Origin: Maribacter arcticus
Lineage (GTDB): Bacteria; Bacteroidota; Bacteroidia; Flavobacteriales; Flavobacteriaceae
Direction: 5' to 3'
DNA length: 64,000 nt
Assembly (NCBI RefSeq): GCF_900167935.1
Contig: NZ_FUYL01000001.1
Coordinates: 62,001 to 126,000, forward strand
Under the pieces are notes generated by a model. That model did no database searches. It had not been told where the DNA came from and was given only the letters and a program-made list of their open reading frames with translations. This document shows, in pieces, positions 52,044 to 55,089 of this stretch (position 1 is its first letter; every line of letters begins with the position of its first letter). The translations under genes were made by a program, and so were the position numbers.

Positions 52044-53021
52044 TTATAAGATTAAAAGTGGTTTATCTAAAGAGGGAGAAGGAGAATATATCCTATCATA
52101 TCGATTATTAACTAAATCAATATATTTCTCTTTCATAGTATTTGATAAAAAGGAATTATTAACCCATTTTATTGCATTCCCCTTTTTCTTGTAAAAACGA
52201 TTGAATACACTTGAAATTTGCTTCTCGGTGAGCCCTAGCCCAGTGCCTAGGTTTTCGAAATGCTTTCGTTGGAGTTTACTCTTTTTTCCTTCTATAGTAA
52301 GTGCTAACTCTTCGTTATCATCAGGATTGGCAATGGAAACGTTGAGTAAGTCGTATGCAGGTGCTAGAAGCCACCCCCAAGTAGATTTAATCATGGAGAA
52401 GTTTTTAAGATGCATATCGTTATTCCCCGTCAAAAAACTAAACAGTGTTAATTCAAAAAAGAAGACCATATCCAATAGTGTATTTGCGGAATGGGTTCGC
52501 AAAGCTTTCCCAACTTTTTCCATGGAACTTTTGTACTTGTCAAAAGCTTCCGTTATTTGAAACATGTCTAGCATGTGAATTTTTTGGTCATCTTCTGTTC
52601 TGTCTATTCGCTTAGTGATATAAGACAGTTCGCCGGATTGCAATCGAATCAAACTAGAGGGCACGGTCTGTATTCCAAATGTTTCTGCAATGCGCATTGT
52701 TAAATGTTCATTTTGGGGCATTTCGGGATAATCGGATGATGGTGGCTTAAAGATGTAATTACCACCTAAAGCACCAACAACTGTCAGTCTAAAATTACCA
52801 GCGTCTTTAACTTTATTAATTAAAGACATCGACAACTTGGCCTGCACTCCCGGTACAGATATACTTCGGTCAATAACATTCTTTGCTAGTTCTGACATCT
52901 GGTTCAAGGAATATTCCAATTTTGGTGCTTCCTTGGTTCCAAAAAAAGATAAGCTACAAGTTTCGTGAAAATCTGCTTCTCCGCTTAAGCTCTCATAGCA
53001 GTATAAACATTTATGCTTCAT
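52044..53021 (-). CDS. hipT: HipT/HipA-type Ser/Thr kinase toxin
   Basis: A 325-residue kinase lacking the HipA N-subdomain, which is a separate gene here. A CLYC...HETC four-ligand cluster opens the protein. The Gly-rich loop is RSISVPGVQAKLS, with the SIS motif (Ser 53, Ser 55) that is autophosphorylated in HipT proteins. The ATP-binding lysine is in NYIFKPP. Catalytic Asp 202 is in GNNDMHLKNFS and the metal Asp 224 in APAYDLL. By the family it phosphorylates an aminoacyl-tRNA synthetase and halts translation. It starts 11 bp inside the end of hipS. The gene symbol follows the E. coli O127 HipBST system. Confidence 0.9.
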   Translation of the reverse strand: MKHKCLYCYESLSGEADFHETCSLSFFGTKEAPKLEYSLNQMSELAKNVIDRSISVPGVQAKLSMSLINKVKDAGNFRLTVVGALGGNYIFKPPSSDYPEMPQNEHLTMRIAETFGIQTVPSSLIRLQSGELSYITKRIDRTEDDQKIHMLDMFQITEAFDKYKSSMEKVGKALRTHSANTLLDMVFFFELTLFSFLTGNNDMHLKNFSMIKSTWGWLLAPAYDLLNVSIANPDDNEELALTIEGKKSKLQRKHFENLGTGLGLTEKQISSVFNRFYKKKGNAIKWVNNSFLSNTMKEKYIDLVNNRYDRIYSPSPSLDKPLLIL

Positions 53022-53346
53022 GATTTTCTTTTAGGGGGTGAACACTCACGGCGCCTATACAATTTTGACAACAGACTAATAGCAACCCCATTCGGTCATT
53101 TGGGTTTATCTTCCAATTTTTAGTGGCAATGTTCAGCAACCAACCTTCGGGAATCAATCCTTCAAAAAAAGGAAAAAGTCTATTGTCTTTATAGGGTGCT
53201 GATCGGACTGGCATAGAAAACGTCAGAAACTGTTCTGGATAGTTATCTATATAGTCAACATCATATTGAAATACATAGTCGCCATCATTGGTTTCTATAA
53301 GTTCACCCGCTTTACTATTGTTGTATAGGATAGTAGCTCTTCTCAT
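53011..53346 (-). CDS. hipS: HipS-like protein (HipA N-subdomain 1)
   Basis: A 111-residue protein matching only the N-subdomain of HipA: RRATILYNNSKAGELIET, DYVFQYD, and LFPFFEGLIPEGWLLNI, ending with NDRMGLLLVCCQNCIGAVSV. In HipBST systems this stand-alone piece (HipS) is the antitoxin that neutralises HipT, while HipB adds repression. It is translationally coupled on both sides: it overlaps hipB by 4 bp and hipT by 11 bp. The antitoxin role is taken from the family, not shown here. Confidence 0.88.
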   Translation of the reverse strand: MRRATILYNNSKAGELIETNDGDYVFQYDVDYIDNYPEQFLTFSMPVRSAPYKDNRLFPFFEGLIPEGWLLNIATKNWKINPNDRMGLLLVCCQNCIGAVSVHPLKENHEA

Positions 53347-53570
53347 TGTACGTCATTTTCAACACTCTCTTTTGTTGCATTTGGAACAGCAGCAAGCGTA
53401 TGGCCGAACATACTGAGTATGAGGTTGACCTTATCCATATTCAAGTTTGTTTTTCCTTGTTCTATTTTCCGGACAACCGTTAGGGCTACACCTGTTCGTT
53501 CCGCAAATTCTCTTTGTGTGAGATTCACCTCTTTTCTGCGTGCTTTTACAAATTCAGATAAAGTACTCAT
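53343..53570 (-). CDS. hipB: HipB-like XRE-family repressor/antitoxin
   Basis: A 75-residue protein with one helix-turn-helix: LTQREFAERTGVALTVVRKIEQGK (in parts), the XRE pattern, followed by a short helix (LNMDKVNLILSMFG) and a variable tail. It is first in the operon hipB-hipS-hipT. Its start codon lies within the first of three identical-type dyads upstream, so the protein probably represses its own operon. It is somewhat shorter than E. coli HipB. Confidence 0.9.
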   Translation of the reverse strand: MSTLSEFVKARRKEVNLTQREFAERTGVALTVVRKIEQGKTNLNMDKVNLILSMFGHTLAAVPNATKESVENDVQ

Positions 53571-53590
53571 TATATGTTTTTAAATATAAT
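53569..53590. promoter_or_regulatory. HipB operator-like dyad 1
   Basis: ATTATATGTTTTTAAATATA plus AT. Its arms TTATAT and ATATAA are perfect reverse complements separated by 8 bp. It overlaps the hipB start codon. Confidence 0.7.
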
Positions 53591-53608
53591 TATGAGTAAA
53601 TATAATAA

Positions 53609-53630
53609 ATTATATGGTTTTACGTATAAT
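53609..53630. promoter_or_regulatory. HipB operator-like dyad 2
   Basis: Same 22-bp pattern as dyad 1, with arms TTATAT and GTATAA 8 bp apart. It begins exactly 40 bp from dyad 1. Confidence 0.7.
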
Positions 53631-53648
53631 ATAACTAAAAATAATATT

Positions 53649-53670
53649 ATTATATGCTTTTAAGTATAAA
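53649..53670. promoter_or_regulatory. HipB operator-like dyad 3
   Basis: Same pattern (arms TTATAT and GTATAA, 8-bp spacer), again exactly 40 bp further. Three equal steps imply binding on nearly the same DNA face. Confidence 0.7.
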
Positions 53671-54628
53671 AATTACTCTACCGTGACGCTTTATTCACTT
53701 ATTTTGGTATCTATTAAGGAAGATAAAACCATAAATGTATAAAAATATCGATTTTCTATACAAAACGAAAGGGATGTGTATTGATTCAAGTGTTTTGTTA
53801 TGATTTAAGTATATTTTGATTCTCAAACTAAGCAAACTAAGCCCGTTGCCCTTAATTGCATTCCAGTCAAAGCGCATCATTTAAAAAGTTCTTGAACACC
53901 ATCCATTTTAAGAAAAATAGCATGAATGAAGTTCGCTTTATACTCTGCTAGTCATACCCGTATCGCTATCGGATAAATCTTTTTATTTTCAACAGTTGTC
54001 AAATTTAGTACCCCAGAATATACCTTTCCCTTTTCCGAAACCAAAGGAAACCGATTTGTTCCTAGACGGATTGCATAATCAGGCTCATGCTTCGCACTTT
54101 TTATAAATCTTTACTACGCTCAAATCAGTTAAGTGATACAGCATCGAAAAAAGGAAACGCATACGGCACTATGGGAAGTAAAGGGAACTAAAAAGGCATA
54201 CCCCATTATTTCCGCAGCCAAGAAAGCATTTGTAACTTGACATATGATGTCCGTATTACGATGGACATAAAAAAGGGGAAAGCGCACCGGATATAATAAG
54301 TAATGGGTGTTTTTCCCTCATAGATCTTGATACCGAATGCCTTCAAAAAAAATGGAAAGAACTTGAATCAGATCGGAAGCCCAGGGCTGCCGTTTTGAGG
54401 AGCGTAGCGGATAAAAAGGAGTAGCAAGAGGGTAACACGCTACGCGATGTTAAGTGCTCCTTTTTATTTATAAAAAATTGAAATTCAACTGTTTATAAAT
54501 ATGTAAAATTATAAGCTTTTTCCGATTTGCGACAAATGACCCGTGAACGCCCATTTCTGGGGAAGGATTTGCGACAAATATCAACGAATGGGAGAATAGG
54601 TATGGTCCTTACTGCATAAGTTTCAACA
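53671..54628. other. about 960 bp without a recognisable intact gene
   Basis: No credible gene. A 61-residue minus-strand frame (53695-53880) has no motif. From about 54100 the base composition is less AT-rich than the neighbours and looks like decayed mobile DNA. It contains interleaved inverted repeats at 54402-54467. Confidence 0.45.
54402..54467. repeat. interleaved inverted repeats (possible pseudoknot)
   Basis: GCGTAGCG (54402-54409) pairs with CGCTACGC (54438-54445). ATAAAAAGGAG (54411-54421) pairs with CTCCTTTTTAT (54457-54467). The arms alternate A-B-A'-B', so the two stems either exclude each other or form a pseudoknot. The second also looks like a terminator. Confidence 0.55.
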
Positions 54629-55089
54629 TTTAAAAAATATGAGCGGCCCAGAAAAACGTCCGTCAAACAATACCTATCTTGTGTACCGCAAATAAAAACG
54701 GACGGTTCATAGAGCGCTCCATTTATCAGGAGGCATTGGAGGAAAACCAAAAAAGAGTGGAGGAAAATCCGGAATACTATAGGCTCAGGCAACAAATAAC
54801 GGAACATCAGTTCGGCACCCTAAAAAGGCAATGGGGCTTCACCCATACATTGATGAGAGGAAAACAAAATGTACTCCCGGAGGTGAATCTGATAATGATT
54901 TGTTACAATCTCAAAAGACTTGTGTCAATTGTTGGCCTAAAAGTGTTGAAAGACAGGCTAAAAAGGCTTGTCAACATGTTTTTTGCCCTGTTAGAGGAAA
55001 TATCGGCCCCTAGGGCAGACTTCCTTTTATTCCGGATTCCACATCCCCATTCAGCTACAATAGAGAAAACTACCTTAGCTACGCCCTAA
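54629..55089 (+). mobile_element. IS1182-type transposase remnant (C-terminal part, frameshifted)
   Basis: The frame 54679-55089 encodes a C-terminal IS1182-family transposase segment: CTANKNGRFIERSIYQEALE, then ENPEYYRLRQQITEHQFGTL with the catalytic Glu, then KRQWGFTHTLMRGKQNVL and MICYNLKRL. About 50 bp upstream a different frame (54629-54682) gives FKKYERPRKTSVKQYLSC, the preceding cysteine segment, so a frameshift separates them. The DDE domain's first two Asp and the N-terminus are gone. It cannot encode an active transposase. Confidence 0.85.

Follow-up and report, generated by a model that had tools for sequence, protein, structure and literature searches.

What do three evenly spaced dyads in front of a small toxin-antitoxin operon do, and why should they stand exactly 40 bp apart? 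The question arises from a 64,000-nt stretch of Maribacter arcticus DNA (GCF_900167935.1, NZ_FUYL01000001.1, positions 62,001 to 126,000 forward), here called the window, in which an earlier note made from the sequence alone had described a flavobacterial HipBST system behind a triple operator. We consider it likely that this locus is a HipBST module with an autoregulatory promoter, on which HipB dimers would sit on the three dyads in a fixed rotational setting. As a conserved element, the triple operator is strongly supported by comparison of upstream regions among relatives; its occupancy by HipB is predicted from the same comparison. Because the step between sites is kept while the letters change, spacing mutants could tell simple occupancy from neighbor contact, and the locus classes A to D described below are natural step variants whose proteins are known. 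In HipBST systems neutralization (HipS) and DNA binding (HipB) lie in different proteins, and operator geometry offers a handle on how the two are coupled.

The hipBST module and its three dyads

The open reading frame (ORF) coordinates agreed with the three overlapping genes described before, which encode 75, 111, and 325 amino acids (aa) in the order hipB-hipS-hipT on one strand (53570 to 52044), with overlaps of 4 bp (hipB/hipS) and 11 bp (hipS/hipT) (Table 1). HipB matched TIGR03070 couple_hipB (E = 8.2e-19; 67.3 bits, slightly below the 71.65 cutoff) and Pfam HTH_3 (E = 2.2e-11) and had weak matches only to solved structures (Legionella HipB, E = 0.0014). Among solved-structure proteins, HipS scored 58 bits to Legionella HipS and 48 bits to Escherichia coli HipS, and its Glu67-Gly-Trp69 aligned with the E-G-W of the latter (Glu63, Trp65), whose Trp65 is described in the available text as wedged by the kinase loop. 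HipT scored 167.7 bits to Legionella HipT (8ezr), 66.9 bits to E. coli O127 HipT, and at most 31.4 bits to full HipA. Its D202, H204, K206, N207, and D224 were invariant in an alignment of 37 sequences, and the kinase motifs were intact. Structure prediction, which the earlier note had proposed as a check, was run on HipT alone: the AlphaFold2 model (37 sequences) had a mean predicted local distance difference test score (pLDDT) of 80.2, with residues 53 to 76 and 315 to 325 below 50, and its best Foldseek matches were the Legionella and E. coli HipT structures (top match 7vkc; query TM-score [TMq], 0.79). The identification of the module as a HipBST toxin-antitoxin system is thus supported by family and solved-structure matches, gene order, and fold.

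Given the HipT scores of 167.7 versus 66.9 bits, Legionella HipBST is the nearest characterized system. The Legionella pneumophila system (PMC10653801, PMC9325769; 8ezr, 7vkb) shares with the window the gene order, the split HipA, and a triple operator upstream of hipB, and its HipT and HipS are the best solved-structure matches of their window counterparts. It differs in having 18-nt operators at a 71-bp step (our arithmetic), a layout not found in the window with its 20-bp dyads and 40-bp step; in an Ile at the position of Trp69 in HipS; and in an aligned HipT N terminus without the C-x2-C ... H-x2-C pattern described below. E. coli O127:H6 HipBST (PMC10627512, PMC6581861; 7ab3 to 7ab5), which the earlier note had taken as its model, does share the gene split and order, the SIS loop, the E-G-W of HipS, and the fold (TMq ≤ 0.75), but with a HipT at only 66.9 bits it is ruled out as the nearest relative by the bit scores and the Foldseek ranking. 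Legionella-type operators are reported, in the published text available, to be absent from it. In the three-component HipBA of Haemophilus influenzae (PMC9438503), HipA is also split, and the HipS-type protein 7czo (HI_0666) scored 45.1 bits to the window HipS; the available text of that paper makes no mention of an operator array.

Upstream of hipB, 22-nt repeats begin at 53569, 53609, and 53649, so that the exact 40-bp steps reported earlier stand. In the window, the dyads themselves are 20 bp long (TTATAY-N7-CATATAA) and separated by 20-bp gaps. The earlier form, TTATAT-N8-RTATAA, gave the three dyads correctly but was refined by the consensus across relatives, in which 7-bp half-sites flank N6 (TTATATG-N6-CATATAA) instead of 6-bp half-sites flanking N8; of the three window sites, only the middle one has the left-half G. 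Single dyads are unremarkable in this AT-rich window, and the spacing is the remarkable part. With up to one mismatch, TTATAY-N8-ATATAA gave 10 strand-matches in the window versus 4.27 expected, a number reached by 8 of 100 shuffles, and six of the ten are the array sites counted on both strands. None of 20,000 dinucleotide shuffles of the 266 bp preceding hipB produced a 40/40 triad of equal quality. Across the whole genome (4.21 Mb), TTATAY-N7-CATATAA occurred five times, three of them in the array, compared with one occurrence of a reversed control pattern. A regulon was rejected, as the dyad pattern revealed no second array in the genome.

A likeness to the E. coli K-12 hipBA operator through a shared 8-bp spacer had also been suggested. 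The likeness holds when sites are aligned on their centers, where the half-sites share an outer ATA, and both loci have a helix-turn-helix (HTH) repressor and several upstream dyads. It does not extend to the layout: K-12 hipBA has two genes, an unsplit HipA, and four TATCC-N8-GGATA sites at 28/39/28 bp, whereas the window, read directly, has three TATAT/TATAC sites at 40/40 and not the four-site arrangement.

Table 1. Genes, dyads, and candidate promoter element of the module (window coordinates)
Feature	Position	Strand	Description
hipB	53343-53570	minus	75 aa HTH protein; TIGR03070 couple_hipB, Pfam HTH_3
hipS	53011-53346	minus	111 aa, stand-alone HipA N-subdomain 1; Pfam Couple_hipA, E = 1.5e-24
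hipT	52044-53021	minus	325 aa, HipA-type Ser/Thr kinase without N-subdomain 1; Pfam HipA_C, E = 1.1e-43
O1	53570-53589	none	dyad nearest hipB; ends on the A of the hipB ATG
O2	53610-53629	none	middle dyad, 40 bp from O1
O3	53650-53669	none	outer dyad, 40 bp from O2
Candidate -7 promoter box TATATTTA	53597-53604	minus	between O2 and O1

Conservation of the array and its steps across Bacteroidota

A search of the same family found HipT at E = 1e-30 in 32 of 299 genomes, and a scan of genome contigs contributed the best 80 of 584 confirmed loci. From 110 HipT loci we dropped 4 without a HipB match, 2 with <200 bp upstream, and 8 with HipB of <60% identity, leaving 96 close relatives, which include near-copies (e.g., L004 and L084 are the same stretch). 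A triad at 38- to 42-bp steps was present in 94 of the 96, exactly at 40/40 in 80, and the remaining two (L077 and L089) had two sites each. Triads of any kind occurred in 8 of 19,200 shuffles of these loci and 40/40 triads in none, and other 266-bp stretches gave 0 of 1,916; such shuffles preserve dinucleotides but not ancestry, so related loci are not independent tests. The search before hipB homologues, also proposed in the earlier note, therefore bore out the triple operator as a conserved element. Sites lay at -99/-59/-19 of the hipB ATG in 70 of 104 loci with enough upstream DNA (63 without near-copies), and half-site cores were nearly invariant.

The array proved to have relatives with other letters. 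Seven loci (L101 to L107; HipT identity, 42 to 47%) carried three to four copies of TTATACC-N6-GGTATAA (≤3 mismatches) at 40 to 41 bp, and a motif search upstream of their hipB found no TTATATG triad. For a phylum-wide view, HipT was detected at E = 1e-20 in 82 of 395 genomes, and 60 further regions were then fetched, a few partial matches being left out. The loci fell into classes A to D, names coined here, with the window locus in class A; they were sorted by the HipB helix in a first motif-free scan and by best HipT match afterwards. That scan compared three 20-nt windows upstream of hipB at equal steps of 25 to 80 bp with 40 shuffles, which were beaten by 91 of 98 class A loci (77 at 40/40), 45 of 51 in class B (nearly all at 39 to 42 bp), 14 of 16 in class C (70 to 73 bp, one at 61), and 17 of 24 in class D (mostly 60 to 62 bp).

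The set was later enlarged by 199 genomes, a further 92 genomes, and 4 plasmids, with near-copies removed. Of 259 HipT loci, 222 had hipB and hipS by our rules, 219 of these had at least 170 bp upstream, and 193 were nonredundant. The 37 others were mostly class D loci, a class that was rebuilt by a looser rule (29 loci, 23 nonredundant); 11 loci of classes A to C among them remained excluded. A class-specific dyad was then scanned for at steps of 25 to 90 bp, and a triad was called when it was better than all 100 shuffles. Class A had such a triad in 87 of 88 loci, 86 of them with the class step, B in 59 of 66, C in 32 of 34, and D in 15 of 23. Inspection by eye showed two of the calls to be mis-picks: L077 was called at 29/30 but has two true sites, and L133 was called at 62/61 but has four sites 41 bp apart. 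Without them, A stands at 86/88 and B at 58/66. The motif-free scan of the nonredundant set gave triads that beat the shuffles in 81/88 (A), 54/66 (B), 28/34 (C), and 4/5 (D, of which the rules found only five loci).

With the two mis-picks set aside, single steps were narrowly distributed. Exactly 40 bp was found for 157 of 172 class A steps (39 in 9, 41 in 6); class B had 39 in 1, 40 in 69, 41 in 43, and 42 in 3; class D had 60 in 5, 61 in 23, and 62 in 2; and class C had 61 in 2, 69 in 1, 70 in 13, 71 in 33, 72 in 12, and 73 in 3. Both 61-bp steps of class C come from L166 (61/61, one turn below its class), which leaves 31 of 34 class C loci at their own step. The class C dyad, TTACYG-N6-CRGTAA, is 18 nt long, and its step of about 71 bp (69 to 73 bp in 62 of 64 steps) is the published Legionella layout of 18-nt sites and 53-bp gaps. 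As class C HipT scored 384.2 bits to Legionella HipT, this class is the closest kin of that system. Four dyads at the class step, instead of three, were seen in L010, L065, L079, L103, and L133 (the last by eye).

Once the classes had been fixed, we turned to fresh loci from a further family (80 genomes, 38 with HipT). This family contributed 42 loci; hipB was not recovered in 13 of them, 1 had too little sequence, and 5 had been included before, leaving 23 new ones. Among the ten class C loci, eight exceeded every shuffle, with seven at 70 to 72 bp and one at 69/68 that was not dyad-like; the remaining two were at 70 to 71 bp. Five of eight class B loci did so, all at 40 to 41 bp, as were the other three. 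Only one of five class D loci did (60/61), and the rest were scattered (31/30, 37/36, 86/86, and 62/61). Classes B and C thus passed, and class D is weakly supported and noisy. In practice, operator geometry provides a rule by which HipBST loci may be found and sorted within a phylum.

The classes also differ in HipB. After the HTH turn, A-L-T-V-x-R-K was present in 88 of 88 class A loci, G-L-R-F-x-R-D/E in nearly all 66 of class B, and G-K-T-x-x-F-D in nearly all 34 of class C. Between A and B, the half-site (TTATATG versus TTATACC) and the recognition helix both differ, and the step of 40 to 41 bp is common to both. Since half-site and recognition helix change together, HipB is the probable binder of the dyads. 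If the dyads instead served another factor or a nucleoid protein, with the adjacency of hipB incidental, these paired changes would not be expected, nor would three of five genome matches of the pattern fall in one array or triads be missing from 1,916 other stretches of the 96 loci. AT-rich dyads are, on the other hand, common by chance in the window, and one viral contig (L268, about 2757 to 2856) has three class-A-like dyads at 39/40 bp, no HipB match, and a following ORF that reads like a NUDIX hydrolase by inspection. It was 1 of 128 viral loci checked, of which 120 came from the matches listed for a pair of half-sites at a 40-bp distance and 8 encoded a HipB-like protein, and because it was picked from those 120 its triad may be due to chance. 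We regard another factor as very improbable.

A quickly built HipT tree (126 rows, for which 30 of the 88 class A loci and 40 of class B were sampled; Legionella not included) gave Shimodaira-Hasegawa-like approximate likelihood ratio test (SH-aLRT) values of 100 for class D, 100 for class C, and 99 for A plus B. The step label required 15 changes on this tree versus 54.7 for shuffled labels.

The arrays of class A also stand in a fixed relation to a promoter-like box. In 56 of the 87 arrays, O1 started at position -19 relative to the hipB ATG, and the loci in register had a TATATTTG-like box between O2 and O1. Exact TANNTTTG occurred within -25 to +5 of O1 in 62 of the 87 arrays (at -15 in 45), and none of 87 control stretches had it; elsewhere it was near O1 in 6 of 59 class B, 4 of 32 class C, and 5 of 15 class D arrays. 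The box of the window, TATATTTA, is one base off TAnnTTTG, which we take to be the Bacteroidota -7 consensus. A short, evenly repeated array might alternatively function at the RNA level, serve recombination, or work like an iteron, and one class B hipBST does lie on a plasmid typed conjugative. The fixed register to the hipB start and, in class A, to the promoter-like box, the wide occurrence in Bacteroidota, and the lack of a second array in the window genome by the dyad pattern make such a role hard to credit. The plasmid locus is L203 on pRUNSL02 of Runella slithyformis, with its array at 41/40 and a relaxase gene near.

Conserved spacing, a possible helical phase, and a possible mode of repression

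Conservation of the sites was not matched by the DNA between them. Across 72 class A arrays spaced 40/40, pairwise identity was 0.75 to 0.85 in the sites and 0.57 in the O2-O1 gap, where the promoter box lies; in the O3-O2 gap it was 0.38, versus 0.35 from composition. Outer-gap identity versus composition was 0.44/0.37 (26 arrays at 40/40) and 0.38/0.32 (12 at 41/41) in class B, 0.36/0.31 in C (8 arrays), and 0.40/0.29 in D (10 arrays); as these gaps are somewhat more alike than composition predicts, the argument from length is cleanest in class A. There the outer gap is near composition in sequence yet nearly fixed in length, and the step itself therefore looks to be under selection. A step that is kept while the gap sequence is poorly kept points to a geometric constraint, which cooperativity would explain. 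The earlier note had raised looping alongside cooperative repression, but a 40-bp step would seem shorter than an ordinary loop of free DNA requires.

The class steps of 40.2 (mean of the A and B means), 60.9, and 71.0 bp (without L166) correspond to 4, 6, and 7 turns if one turn is taken as 10.15 bp. When triples were drawn at random, with even probability, from 30 to 90 bp, 0.38% fit equally well at zero phase and 0.84% with free phase. With three values only, it is suggestive that class steps differ by about whole helical turns. A claim that the sites share one face was rejected on 40 bp alone, which is 3.8 turns at 10.5 bp per turn, and the comparison of classes is consequently the sole phase argument. 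Remainders at 10.5 bp per turn were 0.83, 0.80, and 0.76 for the class steps and 0.67 and 0.71 for those of K-12 hipBA; the sites are therefore more safely described as keeping a constant angle than as sharing one face.

In the mechanism that we favor, HipB dimers would occupy O1 to O3 at 40-bp steps and repress the promoter, with O1 covering the hipB start, O2 at the expected -33 promoter region, O3 upstream, and the likely -7 box between O2 and O1. HipB would shut the promoter better once HipT and HipS, joining on the DNA, are bound, and HipS would neutralize HipT by placing Trp69 at the kinase loop. The equal step would hold HipB-HipT-HipS complexes in one rotational setting, in which neighbors could touch, most simply via HipS. 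For the window system, we infer the repression, the neighbor contact, the neutralization, and a kinase target; in E. coli O127, the target of HipT is TrpS, which it phosphorylates. A role of HipS in the contact, with the step setting the angle, is suggested by three published findings, each taken from the text available. In Legionella (PMC10653801), HipB binding to the three evenly spaced operators was observed by electrophoretic mobility shift assay (EMSA), and HipT and HipS added further shifts. In E. coli, HipB is needed and sufficient to repress the hipBST promoter, and a lower level suffices with HipT. The HipA N-terminal subdomain, the counterpart of HipS, has been reported to take part in dimerization during DNA binding (PMC6581861).

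A more specific proposal, possible but somewhat less than probable in our judgment, is that of a helical ruler: three HipB sites with a step fixed per subclade and shifted between subclades in whole turns (about 40, 61, and 71 bp), because HipB-HipT-HipS complexes must meet at one angle with HipS bridging. If true, the array would sense the ratio of HipS to HipT and, apart from neutralization, would link the supply of antitoxin to how strongly the promoter is repressed.

Several observations weigh against a fixed rotational setting of HipB on three dyads. Only two clear sites were found in L077 and L089 (class A), in L120, L155, L164, and L165 (class B, by eye), and in L182 and L194 (class D), so three sites are not strictly needed. 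The -7 box of the window departs from the consensus by one base, and few arrays of classes B to D contain the exact box. Binding by HipB is a prediction for every Bacteroidota HipB, the viral triad of L268 has no HipB match, and the HipT model is poor at residues 53 to 76, i.e., the kinase loop itself. In the available text on the Legionella system, O1 stripped of its inverted-repeat symmetry was still shifted (PMC10653801), and the authors raise intermediate occupancy, unlike the cooperativity in E. coli.

These points bear on the alternative that HipB fills three independent sites without contact, which would give graded repression by occupancy and make the even step a relic of tandem duplication. 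The Legionella EMSA can, in the text available, be read as compatible with stepwise occupancy; loci with two sites (L077 and L089) and four sites (L010, L065, L079, and L103) occur; and the outer gaps of B, C, and D lie slightly above composition identity, as shared ancestry would leave them. A relic would, however, hardly keep its length within 1 bp while the class A gap decays to 0.38 versus 0.35, or keep its step after the change of half-site between A and B. We therefore think independent sites unlikely.

The triple operator is not new in kind, since the Legionella system has three evenly spaced operators tested by EMSA, and HipBST of the Legionella type is described as widespread in Bacteroidota in the available text of PMC10653801. 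A literature search found no report of HipBST operators outside Legionella, but it covered titles and the starts of abstracts, with most subscription journals outside its scope, and does not prove that none exists. What seems new is the existence of 40-bp classes, their distribution across Bacteroidota, and the step rule.

Kinase-loop serines, a likely metal site, and flanking DNA

HipT residues 53 to 55 read S-I-S, directly ahead of V-P-G-V-Q, as had been noted. This SIS is a trait of the window protein but not a family constant: the 88 class A loci had SVA in 33, SIA in 20, SVS in 15, SIS in 13, SVT in 3, and four others, and SIS was accordingly rejected as a HipBST family signature. The first serine by the Gly-rich loop was present in 84 of 88 class A loci and in 5 of the 44 class B triplets printed (of 66 loci). 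All 88 class A loci and 63 of the 66 class B loci have the HipS Trp69; among the 34 class C loci the position was Ile in 17 and Val in 11.

The HipT N terminus carries C5-x2-C8-x10-H19-x2-C22 (residues 5 to 22; 52956 to 53009, minus strand), likely a metal (zinc) site. C-x2-C followed by H-x2-C was present in 88 of 88 class A and 65 of 66 class B loci and was not found in HipT of 34 class C and 23 class D loci. The available text of the HipBST and HipBA literature (PMC8262856, PMC10627512, PMC9325769, PMC6581861, PMC9438503, and PMC10653801) makes no mention of it.

Carriage of the module by phages was rejected, as 50,697 phage records held no HipT match at E = 1e-5. Eight viral contigs (L384 to L391) encode a HipB-like HTH protein with 52 to 66% identity, possibly phage repressors of this type; neither HipS nor HipT was matched there at E = 1e-4, and the stretches examined lacked a 40-bp triad. 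Downstream of hipT, 51780 to 52000 matches only itself in the genome and may be the scar of an insertion; it contains two stretches that by eye resemble 3' ends of tRNA genes, although no tRNA was called. Farther upstream of the array, 53830 to 53900, which likewise matches only itself in the genome, resembles by eye the DNA upstream of the array in L004, L005, L006, and L011. Part of a DDE transposase (Pfam DDE_Tnp_1_6; E = 8.4e-10) lies upstream of the module at 54679 to 55089.

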